A stretch of 64,000 bases of DNA, from the NCBI GenBank assembly GCA_034509925.1, contig CM067527.1:8994001-9058000 (forward strand), given 5' to 3'. Position numbers and translations under genes: made by a program. This document shows, one piece after another, positions 6,701 to 12,700 of this stretch. Within the stretch, counting starts at the first letter, position 1. Each line of letters begins with the position of its first letter. Below the pieces are notes generated by a model. The model was not told the DNA's origin and did no database searches. It worked only from the letters and a program-made list of their open reading frames with translations. The stretch is from Hirudinaria manillensis (lineage: Eukaryota; Annelida; Clitellata; Hirudinida; Hirudinidae).

Positions 6701-9700
6701 ATGCATTACCGCATTGCCCTGTTACCGATTAATAATGATTTTTGATAATTGATAATAAAGGTGATGATTACGAAAAGATTGAAGATTACGACTAATTCCA
6801 ACGATGGAAATGTGATAATGACGACGATGGTGATCTCGACTATAATAACTACCACGACTATGATAATGATGGCGATCAACTACGTTGATGATGATGGTGA
6901 TGACCTGATAGTTCTTGGCACTCACTGCTCTGATCATCACTTGATTCTGACATTCTTTTCAACGTTTGATCTATGGCTCCTTTGACACTGTTTATGACGT
7001 TCGAACAACTCTGTAGGTCCTCCACTATCGACTGTTAACGTTAATAAATAATGTTAATAAATTAATTAATGAAATATTTTATTTAAATTGCCTTTAAATT
7101 TATTAATCTCATTTATAATTAAGCATTGTAATCAAGCGAAAAAATGAAATTACACAAATATCTTTATTGGGTACCAGTGAAATCGAACAAATGGCATTAA
7201 TGGATTCTATGTTGAATTAAATAATAACGATTACTATTATTACTATTATAAGATATTATTTGGATTTCCATTGCATCATCTTATTACAACCTCATTTTCT
7301 GCAATTTGTCCTCTCAGAGTCGTAGGATTGGCTGCTATTGGATCAGCATATTTGGCCTTTCCATTCAAATACTGAAGGTCATCTACGATGCTATCAAGTG
7401 TGACAGTTACCTGCAGATAGATAAGTAACTCAAATACGATAATAATTAATTTAATTATAATTTAGACGAATGTAATCGTGTAACATGCAAATGGTTTATT
7501 GATTTAAATATTTATATTTATGTAGATCAAAAAATTTTGAATCATAATGGACATTTAAAGTATCCTGATTATTCTACAGTCTAAAATGTATCCCAAAAGT
7601 GAAGAAATTAAAGGTGGAATATCAGATGACAACAGATCCAATAAAGAATTTGAAAACAAAACTGACATCGACTGTCAATCTTCTGACAGTTTCATCGAGC
7701 AAGGCCAGTTTCCCTCTGACAGCCTGCTTGACGATGACGTAGCGATTCATGACGTGGTCGACCTGCCTCTGGACGCCAGCTGAGTCGTATCTCGTTGAAA
7801 TGGACATCAAGTCATGGCCCGTCATCACCACGTCATCAACAACAGCCTTGTAGTCGTCAATTAACCTCTGAGCTGCCTGATTAATAATAATAATAATAAT
7901 AATAATAATAATAATAATAATAATAATAATAATAATAATAATAATAATAATAATAATAATAATAATAATAATAATAATAATAATAATAATAATAATAATA
8001 ATAATAATAATAATAATAATAATAATAATAATAATAATAATAATAATAATAATAATAATAATAATAATAATAATAATAATAATAAGAATGGCGTCTCGAG
8101 CGAGTGGTCGTGCGGCTGTTTTTCGCGAATTCTCGATAATTTTACGGTTTTTGCGGCAGTTTCGCTTTTTTTCTGACCATTTCGTGTCCCCTACATTCCG
8201 TTTAGGATTGTGAGACCATTCTCAAGTTCAAAGGGGAAAAACTGAAGTTGAACAGCGTAAATTTATCTGTCGACGTCTTGCATTGTTCTGGACTCCACAA
8301 CTTCAGGAAAACAGAAGAGAAAGAAGTCATTTCAAGCTCGTTTGCTTCCAAGAACGTCTGCTGGTCGATGTTTTTGTGAATTTTTTGATTTAATTCAACT
8401 TGAGGAATCGTCGGAAAGAACAATAAGTAAACAATGCAAACCCGTGCGCGCACCTTGTTGGCTCTCACAAAGGTGAAAGACTGTTCTGGCCCTTCTGAGA
8501 CTCAAGTGACTGTACAGCCAAAGTGCGAATATTGTAACGCTGAATTCAAAACAACAAAAGGAGCAAGAATTCACGAAAGTCGCGTCCATCCAGTTCAGTG
8601 TCACGCAAAAAGGTCAGGAAAAAGCTACGGAAAATGTAGATGGGATAAAGAGGAATCCCATGTGATGGCAATGTTGGAGATAGAACTGAAGCAACAAGGA
8701 GTTAGATTCATCAACATAGAACTCCACAAGCATTTCCCTCACCGAACTTTGGCCTCCATTCGAGGACATCGGATACAGACAGAATACAGAACTATTCTCC
8801 AACAATGCATCAGTAATACCAGGTCCTCAGAAAATTTTCAGACGTCATTAGCCGAGAGTCCAACTGAGCTGACTGCGAGTAGAAATTCTGTCTGCGAAGA
8901 ATCATTTGAGGAAGTTCACTCGGGACATTCAAAAGAACTATGGAGGAATATGTCGAGAGCTGAAGCTGGACTTAATGACCAGGAAAGAAAGAGAATCAAT
9001 ATCGCCCTCTCCAGGCACTTCCCGGATATGAGTGTTAGGCGCATAAAGAGAATCAGAAACAAGCCTGGTTATAAGAGCCTTCTAAGCAATGCCTTTCAGG
9101 ATTCTGTGGCCTCGGGACAGACTGAAAACCAGATTTTAGGAATGCCGCCTACGAATGGGGAGCAAGAGAAAATAGTCAGTAACTCAATTGCAATAGACAA
9201 TCAGTTAAAGTTGAAACAGTTTGTGATTGAAAGATACCAAATGATCCATCTAGATGGTGAAGAGTTCTCCAACCTCATAAACGAGAAGCTCCCGAGAACA
9301 GAGAGAATCTCACTGATTAATAAGGAATATGAAAAGTGGATCTCAATTCAAGTTCCACAGAAGATCAATAGCAGTGAGCCCAGACAACCGGCCAATCGTG
9401 CTGAGAGTGCCCATAGAAACAACGATCGTGTCCAAAGCAAATCAGAAAACCAATGCAGAACTTTCCGGAAGACAAAAATCAGGGTGTCAAAGAAGGAACA
9501 AAAAAAGTTAGAGCGACAGAAGTGCTATGCTAGTCTGCAAAAACTTTTCCGAAAAAGTCCAACATCTGCAGCGCACTCGGTTTTGAAAGGAGAATATGAA
9601 GTCCAGACAGGCGCTTTCCCTGCGGGGTTGGCGGATTATTGGAGCGAGATCTTTGGGGAGACATCGGTGGAGGATGACAGGCCTCTGGTGACGATCAGAG

Positions 9701-12700
9701 ACATCGCAACAGAAATGCAAGATCCGATCACCAGATGGGATGTAGAGATCGCATTCCGGGGACTAAAGGACAGCAGCCCTGGACAGGATGGCATTCGAAA
9801 AAGGCATCTTGCAAAATTCAGTTATGACGATCTCGCTGTTCACATGTCTCTCTGGTTGCTAACAGGAGTACCTCCCGCATCATTCAAATCGGGAATCGTC
9901 ACATTCATTCCGAAGAATAAAGAGGCCTCGACTCCGAGCGATTATCGACCTATCACTGTTGGTCCGATTATGGCGCGTCTCTTCCATCGTATCCTTGGAG
10001 GTAGAATGTTGGGGAATTGGCCCCTCTCATCGAGACAAAAAGCTTTCTGTCCGGGGGATGGCATCGCACAAAATCTCTTTCTCATCAAATCAATAATTCA
10101 AAAAAAGAAAGAACAGATCCAAAAACTTAACCTGACATTTGTCGACGTCACCAAAGCTTTCGACTCAGTATCCCATAAATCTATCCTCAGGGCTGCTGCC
10201 AGACTCGGTACTCCACCTCTCCTCCTTAACTACTTAGAGGAACTTTACAAAGAAAGTGAGGTTCACTTTAAAGTCGAGGGAGTACTTACTAGAGGGGTAC
10301 AGGTGAAAAGGGGAGTTCGTCAAGGAGACCCGATGTCCCCCAACTTATTCAATGCGGTCATGGATATGATAACCAGCGAACTGGATCAATCAATTGGTGT
10401 CACGGCTGGCAGAAATTCAGCGATCAGATGCAATTATATTGCATTCGCTGATGATCTGGTGGTGATGTCAACAACTGACATCGGAATGAAGAAGTTGATG
10501 GAGCAACTTGAAACTGCAATGGGCAGCGCAGGACTTAAGATCAATCCAAACAAGTGCGCTACACTCAGAACGGAAACCCATTGCAAGGAAAAACGCTGGA
10601 TAATCAATCCTACGCCCTACATTAAATTTGAATCACAGGATATCAAAGCAATAGACGTCTCACAGACTTACAAATACCTGGGGATACAGATTGGAGTTCG
10701 AAAGCAGCCAGTGTCGATCGGCTATGAAATTCAAAAGTCTCTCAACTCCATTTCAAAAGCACCAATTAAGCCTTGCCAACGCCTATATATTTTAAAAGTC
10801 CATCTGATACCAAGCCTCGTTCACAAACTTACCTTTGGCGAGGTCAACCTCGGTTCTCTGAGTTCCTCAGATACCGCGATTAGGAAAGCAACAAGACATT
10901 GGCTTCATCTTCCAAAGGATGTCCCAAAGCCATTTTACCATGCTCCCGTCAAATCCGGTGGTCTGGGAATACTTCCACTTAAACAATGGGTTCCCCGGCT
11001 CAGAATAAATAGATTGACAGATATCTTCTCTGAGACAGGTGGTCGTAAAGATGAATTCCTGTTGGATGTTCTTAGGAACAACACCCTGATCATGAGAGAA
11101 TTCCGGAAATTTGGAACGTCGGAGGCAAAACAAGCAAAACTGGATTGGAAAGTGGCGGCCTCAGAGAGCCTATACAAAACTGTAGACGGTTATGGATTAA
11201 GATCATTCACCAGAGGAATTGGAATGAGTGATTGGATTTCAGCAGCGGTTCCAAGAGTTCCATCTGGCCAATACATCAAATGCATAAAAGTCCGAGCGGC
11301 CGCCCTTCACTGCAGACTCCGAGCATCGAGATGGAATCCTCTGGCTTCAAGGAGATGCGGGGAGGGCTGCAATTCTTTCGAATCGCTGGACCACATGATC
11401 CAGAGATGCCCGAGAACGGATGGCCCAAGGCATGAAAGACACAACGCTGTCGTCAGGGAATTAGAACGGGAGTTACGAAAAAGGGGTTATACTACGGTAA
11501 TAGAGCCCCGTATTCCCACAGAAAAGGGACTCAAAATTCCTGATTTGTGTGCCTGGACACGTGACCTCTACATAGTGACTGATATTGCCGTGACATCCGA
11601 TGATTATGATTTAGACAAGTGTCATAAGAGCAAGGTTTCAAAGTATGACATTAAAGATGTTCATGATTGGATGTTGAGGAATGCCCCAGCCGGTGTCCAA
11701 AGAATGCTTCCGAAGGTTGGCGCCTGCGTTTGCAACTGGAGAGGAGTCATGAGTGCAGAATCATACAGATTCTGGAGAGAGTGCGGCGCTTCGAAGACGA
11801 GTTTAATGTACGTTGTGCTGTCGGTCCTCAGTCACAGTTACAAAATCTGGAGGGCTCACAGGTGCCCACTTCCGAGGGCAATCGCACTTTCTCGGACTGC
11901 GAATTCTCAATGACATTGGCAGTTGACATTACTCGGCGCGTTCGATCGTGATTTCACCTTCTGACCGAATGTCCAGGGTGATCTCGGGCCCTAGTGCGGA
12001 CACTAAACTTTGGAGAGGCCGTCGGAATATTGTTGTTTGTGTTTTGGGTGTGAGGCCGAGAAAATAAAATAAAAAAAAAAAAAAAAAAAATAATAATAAT
12101 AATAATAATAATAATAATAATAAGAATCCATTCATTTATCGGCAGTCTTACTTGCCATTATTTCTAGCACGTTATATAGGAGAACTTAAAAATTAGTCGA
12201 GATTAGGACATTAAAGCAGGAGATAAATATTTCATTAAATGCTCGCTGATGACCTGTGATTGCATTCCACGCCAAAAAAAAATCAATCACTTGGCCATGC
12301 TGTGCCCCATACTATGCTGATGATTATTTAATATAACATGTCCTTTTGTCACTATAACGTTATTATCCTGCAATATGTCTAATAATATATTTAATAATAA
12401 GTTAAATAATTTATGCAATAATAATTTTAAAAATAAATTTAATAAATAAGTTTAATAATAACTCTCGATAATGTCTAATAATAATGGTAATAATAACTCG
12501 CTACCGGCTTCGTGACCTACTTTGGCTCTGTCCTGTTTCACTTTCACTTCTTCGACAGGCTCGTCCGGCTTGCAATCGATGCAGGTGATCTCCAGTTCTA
12601 TGTCTGCTAACCAGGTCAACAGGCGGTCAAAGGTCATGCTGAAGTAGGTGGCCAATGGCAGCTTCTCTTCCAGGATTTGAAGTCTAAATTTAGAAAGAGA

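Follow-up and report, generated by a model that had tools for sequence, protein, structure and literature searches.

R2 elements normally reside in ribosomal RNA genes. Departures by R2-related elements are on record for R8, R9 and non-specific families (PMC5035012, PMC7650587, PMC12203849), and in the R4 clade TAA repeats border the 5′ junction of the Dong element of Bombyx mori, with DongAg and DongBg also found in microsatellites (PMC3774820, PMC3636483). Here we describe an element in a 64-kb stretch (the window) of the Hirudinaria manillensis genome (148.4 Mb, 23 contigs), where one copy occupies C2:9002085-9006065. We read it as an autonomous, recently active non-long terminal repeat (non-LTR) retrotransposon of the restriction-like endonuclease (RLE) type that belongs to the R2 lineage and whose insertions into TAA microsatellites share a single orientation, and we put the probability of this reading at roughly 0.7. 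Its anatomy is R2-like and its habit is Dong-like.

TAA arrays at both ends of the element

Flanks of the genomic copies were scored by two tests, with background for both taken only from the rest of the window, on both strands. The 3′ test, applied to 51 flanks, asked for an A-rich tail followed by at least three TAA units, and the 5′ test asked for a sense TAA run of at least six units within the last 200 nt of 44 usable flanks (L020, with a masked 5′ flank, was left out). The 3′ test was passed by 44 of 51 copies compared with 141 of 119,108 background positions (0.12%), and the 5′ test by 42 of 44 compared with 140 of 16,958 background 200-nt windows (0.83%); all four additional 3′ flanks from later sampling pass as well. 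The A-rich tail is 9–76 nt long across the 44 passing copies, and in some copies merely 2–3 TAA units follow downstream. The seven copies that miss on the 3′ side (L023, L029, L042, L044, L046, L047 and L054) have upstream sense TAA runs of 46, 7, 33, 6, 8, 25 and 11 units, respectively, with 5′ sides matched via paired loci for L042/L062, L047/L063, L044/L089, L046/L091 and L054/L088. The 28S half-site is present at none of the 51 3′ flanks, and the element is not an R2 in the strict sense of occupying the 28S R2 site. The evidence that the element targets TAA arrays is very strong. Among the 5′ flanks, that of L073 (C6:8006200-8006520) is the sole one of the 44 without a TAA run of even two units.

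Target duplications were sought in 39 usable pairs of 5′ and 3′ flanks, most of them uninformative (masked L020 and L031 were left out, and L031 gave no 3′ end), and eight clear cases of 13 to ~209 nt were found. Exact blocks of unique DNA lie on both sides of the element at L063/L047 (45 nt), L091/L046 (62 nt), L090/L055 (133 nt), L015 (78 nt) and L032 (67 nt); the longest duplication, ~209 nt at L059/L081, includes a 157-nt exact block, and shorter ones are present at L062/L042 (22 nt) and L089/L044 (13 nt). All eight stop 0–17 nt short of the element 5′ end, and the 3′ copy opens in several TAA units in six of them, in about one unit in L046 and in AACAACAATAATA in L044. A 466-nt match at L030, together with array-only or distant short matches, is ambiguous and was not scored. 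Because the array's end and the unique DNA next to it are found in duplicate, once before and once after the element, they show that the TAA array is older than the insertion and is part of the target and not of the element tail.

The pure TAA run is longer upstream than downstream in 20 of 28 copies and shorter in seven (medians 31.5 and 9.5 units; Wilcoxon p = 0.0057; masked L020 and L031 left out). A longer upstream run would fit protein binding upstream of the nick by analogy with R2Bm (PMC10499050), although the nearest pure upstream run is just 4–7 units in three copies.

The initial annotation of the window had proposed homing to TAA microsatellites rather than ribosomal DNA (rDNA), with TAA as the target and not the element's own tail. 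Both proposals are borne out, the first by the genome-wide tabulation of 3′ ends, the 5′ flanks and the lack of the 28S half-site at the 3′ flanks, and the second by duplications that cover array and adjoining unique DNA alike. Copies at unrelated sites were the outcome named in advance as telling against it, and the 44 5′ flanks give no more than two such cases (L067 and L073).

Lineage and alternative readings

The domain order of finger, Myb, reverse transcriptase (RT), CCHC and RLE within one open reading frame (ORF) is the layout of the R2 clade, taken here in the RT-based sense that also covers R8, R9 and R2NS. R2Bm ranks first in a comparison with PDB sequences (381 bits), followed by R2Tg and two further R2 chains (274–244 bits) and then LINE-1, and over the core stretch (query residues 307–1096) the element scores 352 bits against R2Bm where R2Bm and R2Tg score 296 bits. 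In the same PDB comparison the finger and Myb stretch align to R2Bm with an i-Evalue of 9.3e-06. By alignment, the RLE positions D1037, D1050, K1067 and K1070 are the same in R2Bm, and the segment at RT loop 6a, a loop predicted to be unique to R2 proteins (PMC10499050), keeps one H and one K relative to R2Bm.

The exact 28S half-site occurs twice in the genome, each time occupied by another, broken R2 element, and the exact pattern of an intact 28S R2 site is absent from the genome. One of these rDNA R2s is confirmed by an Rfam 28S match and the other by ~28 nt of 28S alone; both lie near a contig end (L078; C9:4200-11400) with 28S at their 3′ ends, one having an internal RT deletion and the other being split into frames. 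Trees of the RT and RLE regions were built with 5 to 8 rows, R4, Dong, HERO and NeSL not being among them. The element groups with both host rDNA R2s (support 88/93 with an outgroup and 93/92 without), with the first host R2 (94/95 over 547 columns and 81/85 over 297 columns) or with the other (98/98 over 434 columns), and the element and host R2s are separate from the Bombyx R2 and R2Tg-type R2s with moderate support. When a second repeat family (see below) is added, the element groups with one host R2 at 80/83, 91/92 and 99/98. The window copy had been annotated as R2/R4-type; its R2 side is retained with moderate support and its R4 side is disfavoured, so that membership of the R2 lineage is likely, and favoured over R4/Dong, but not proven by trees that hold no R4 or Dong rows. 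One scan each of public viral contigs and genome contigs gave no relatives.

Several results weigh against an R2-lineage element homing to TAA arrays. Two of the 44 5′ flanks (L067 and L073) are without a six-unit TAA run, that of L067 corresponding to the tail of the second family. A 5′ ribozyme resembling that of hepatitis delta virus (HDV) is known for R2, R4 and Dong. No HDV-type Rfam match was found at E up to 10, only weak unrelated matches; a loose home-made HDV descriptor gives nine overlapping matches from three starts (8094, 8122 and 8123), with weak stems that include mismatches and G-U pairs, compared with a mean of 0.93 matches in 30 single-base shuffles, seven of which have any. 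The first of these starts, 8094, falls at the element 5′ end. The 8-row tree keeps a single host R2 with the element (80/83) and leaves the other host R2 unplaced, and when all 28S R2s are forced into a clade without the element the approximately unbiased (AU) test gives p = 0.099, 0.056 and 0.012, or 0.118 and 0.0196 in trees that also include the second family; nesting among the 28S R2s is therefore not firmly shown. For most R2-clade elements the literature describes deletions of the target and not duplications (PMC3636483). Finally, the R2Bm target motifs RUM and RASIN (PMC10499050) were tried as a cause of the TAA choice and rejected: TAA in its best register agrees with the motifs at 7 of 11 positions and the TTA strand at 8, and at least 7 of 11 are also matched at ~7.5% of 20,000 random window sites, such that the published motifs account for neither the choice of TAA nor the orientation.

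Of the alternatives, the one that survives best places the element in the R4 clade as a relative of Dong, its TAA homing being simply the ancestral Dong habit with no switch from 28S. The TAA repeats and microsatellites of Dong, DongAg and DongBg are as this would have it, and R4 elements make target duplications (PMC3636483), likewise seen here; the grouping with one or both host rDNA R2s, at moderate support, and the segment at the position of the predicted R2-only loop 6a argue against it, and we consider it unlikely.

A second possibility is that the TAA repeats were generated by the element's own tail and do not reflect target choice, microsatellite families made by RTE elements being the subject of PMC2887409. 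Slippage on an A-rich tail could give a few TAA units, and some copies have only two or three downstream. This is contradicted by the arrays that stand upstream as well, by the duplications, in which array end and unique DNA both precede and follow the element, and by upstream runs that are mostly the longer ones, and we regard it as very improbable. Less probable still, and contradicted, is a non-specific R2-like element owing its apparent specificity to a TAA-rich, AT-rich genome, since TAA arrays are indeed frequent genome-wide (65,180 overlapping matches to a 13-unit array on one strand and 64,446 on the other) but are merely a large target that cannot yield flank rates so far above background, and the repeats have a single orientation, with a TTA run of at least six units upstream in only one of the 44 5′ flanks.

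Genomic copies, a second family and integration

Searches with the ORF protein, in which 40 candidates were scored, listed at least 41 matches, a lower bound; the 3′-end search used the best 40 of 115 first-look candidates and the 5′-end search the best 40 of 44. Copies are spread over many contigs in the protein and 3′-end searches. Among the matches listed, 20 copies (counting the window copy) cover residues 1–1159, and the ORF is free of stops in 17 of them. ORF identity to the window copy is >99.2% in 12 copies, itself included, and 95.9–97.6% in eight, and the ratio of nonsynonymous to synonymous substitution rates (dN/dS) has values of 0.16 for the 66 pairs inside the first set, 0.20 for the 28 pairs inside the second and 0.18 for the 96 pairs that join the two. 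The stop-free copies together with these ratios fit a young family under selection that would have been mobile recently, in line with the intactness and possible activity originally ascribed to the window copy. For nine copies located through their 5′ ends, the 3′ end was sought at full-length distance; four were found (L081, L082, L086 and L087) and five stretches (L079, L080, L083, L084 and L085) gave no match.

Two loci have unusual arrangements. At C4:4395911-4404620 three element 3′ ends lie within ~6 kb, with one copy immediately preceding another and a TAA array between them, and L063 and L066 (C12:2.911 and 2.933 Mb) are stretches that appear duplicated by eye, having the same unique flank but not the same 5′ junction, as though paralogous arrays had each been hit by an insertion. 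Separately, COX1 (open under code 5) is found with equal score on chromosome-size C9:3026446-3027786 and at C23:31-1371, reflecting either an error of assembly or a mitochondrial insert that entered the nuclear genome recently.

The second repeat family (L092-L114) was reached via the L067 flank, and the best 40 of 118 candidates were scored. Its protein is 53% identical to that of the window element over 738 amino acids, one copy, split into two frames, has a comparable finger region at the N terminus, and the two families group together (86/93, 99/99 and 98/97). For its 3′ ends the tail rule was widened to A or G and 20 of the 40 listed copies were examined, 19 of them anchored (L095, without an anchor, was dropped); TAA repeats are met in 14 of the 19, and the 5′ end of one copy adjoins a TAA array. 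At C3:8.18 Mb a second-family element begins right after the array behind a first-family copy. From the 3′ ends at TAA, the identity and the grouping, TAA homing probably predates the split of the two families. Conserved 5′ untranslated region (UTR) blocks are common to both, and a predicted 5′ UTR structure has 43 pairs, of which six are changed on both sides and nine broken in one divergent row of four.

The features of the window copy are listed below. The single unbroken ORF with a C2H2 finger, a Myb-like region, RT (FADD) and RLE that was first annotated is confirmed; of the pure TAA flanks described with it, the arrays are present on both sides, but on the 3′ side the A-rich tail precedes the TAA units.

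Features of the window copy, in window positions
Feature	Position	Strand	Basis or remark
Upstream TAA target array, ~69 units	7882..8089	+	
5′ UTR with the 5′ end of the element; blocks in common with second family, predicted stem with two-sided changes	8090..8433	+	
Single ORF, 1159 amino acids	8434..11913	+	Uninterrupted
N-terminal C2H2 finger, residues 31-52 (C31, C34, H47, H52)	8524..8589	+	R2Bm alignment
Myb-like stretch, residues ~67-125	8632..8808	+	Alignment to R2Bm
RT (RVT_1), residues 492-753; FADD at residues 671-674	9907..10692	+	Pfam, 2e-33
Segment aligning with R2Bm RT loop 6a, residues 713-719	10570..10590	+	R2Bm alignment; loop: PMC10499050
CCHC knuckle (C975, C979, H987, C992)	11356..11409	+	
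RLE, PD-(D/E)xK (D1037, D1050, K1067, K1070)	11431..11673	+	R2Bm alignment
3′ UTR	11914..12064	+	
A-rich tail, 26 nt	12065..12090	+	Length differs among copies
Downstream TAA target array, 11 units	12091..12123	+	

Some genomic copies are 5′-truncated. In one at C4:12.70 Mb (L074 1028-1293 with L027), which lies next to a TAA array, the 5′ end is joined to the start of 18S rRNA, the rRNA part corresponding to positions 1–260 of the Rfam eukaryotic 18S model; the simplest reading is that the RT jumped from the element RNA to 18S rRNA and copied this to its very end. The target, orientation, tail, duplications, 5′ truncation and 18S-fused copy are all visible in the copies themselves, and integration is best read as target-primed reverse transcription (TPRT) with variable, often long, target duplications, for which the nicks would presumably be ordered as follows. 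The element protein would bind the TAA array, its N-terminal finger/Myb domain presumably supplying the specificity by analogy with R2Bm, and the RLE would nick the bottom strand within the array or at its downstream end. The RT would then use the exposed 3′ OH to prime copying of the element RNA from its A-rich 3′ end, and cutting of the top strand at a variable distance downstream would generate duplications of about a dozen to ~200 nt, most of them starting in the array.

Comparison with known systems

At least two R2-derived families appear, on balance, to have left 28S and become specific for TAA microsatellites in a host whose rDNA still has R2 copies (two seen, both broken). If so, this is a natural case of full retargeting of the R2 machine. 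Since array sequence is copied into the target duplication, an insertion would leave the amount of target unchanged or increase it, as illustrated by the successive element 3′ ends at C4:4.396-4.402 Mb and by the neighbouring copies of the two families at C3:8.18 Mb. The residues that set the target would be easier to find with a young R2 relative whose target is new, simple and abundant and whose host also carries rDNA R2s, and the same pairing would help to explain how an element comes to occupy dispersed repeats. No report of a TAA-specific R2-clade element was found in the open-licence literature, a search that did not take in the microsatellite-target survey of Kojima and Fujiwara 2004, which several of these papers cite.

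R8 remains within rRNA genes. R9 does so too (PMC12203849), and both are like the element in having a changed target and target duplications, which are exceptionally long in R9 (PMC5035012, PMC3636483, PMC3774820), whereas the element would have moved from rDNA to a microsatellite. R2NS-1_SMed, R2NS-1_CSi and BLAG, R2 or R2-like as well, are found away from the 28S site (PMC5035012, PMC7650587) but are reported as non-specific, unlike the element. Togen (NeSL clade, TG repeats) and some HERO families are likewise microsatellite-specific RLE elements (PMC4640811), compared here by description only; they belong to other clades, and Togen uses another repeat.

Dong shares with the element the TAA target and the RLE (PMC3774820, PMC3636483, PMC5678591) and differs, again compared by description only, in that the element protein groups with R2s; a 5′ ribozyme is demonstrated for Dong, where the element gives weak-stem descriptor matches and no Rfam match. 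R2Bm and the host rDNA R2s share with the element one ORF, a single C2H2 finger, Myb, an RT with the loop 6a segment, CCHC and the RLE residues. In contrast to these, the element targets TAA arrays and not the 28S site, is dispersed over many contigs, and makes target duplications where most of the R2 clade is described with deletions (PMC3636483).

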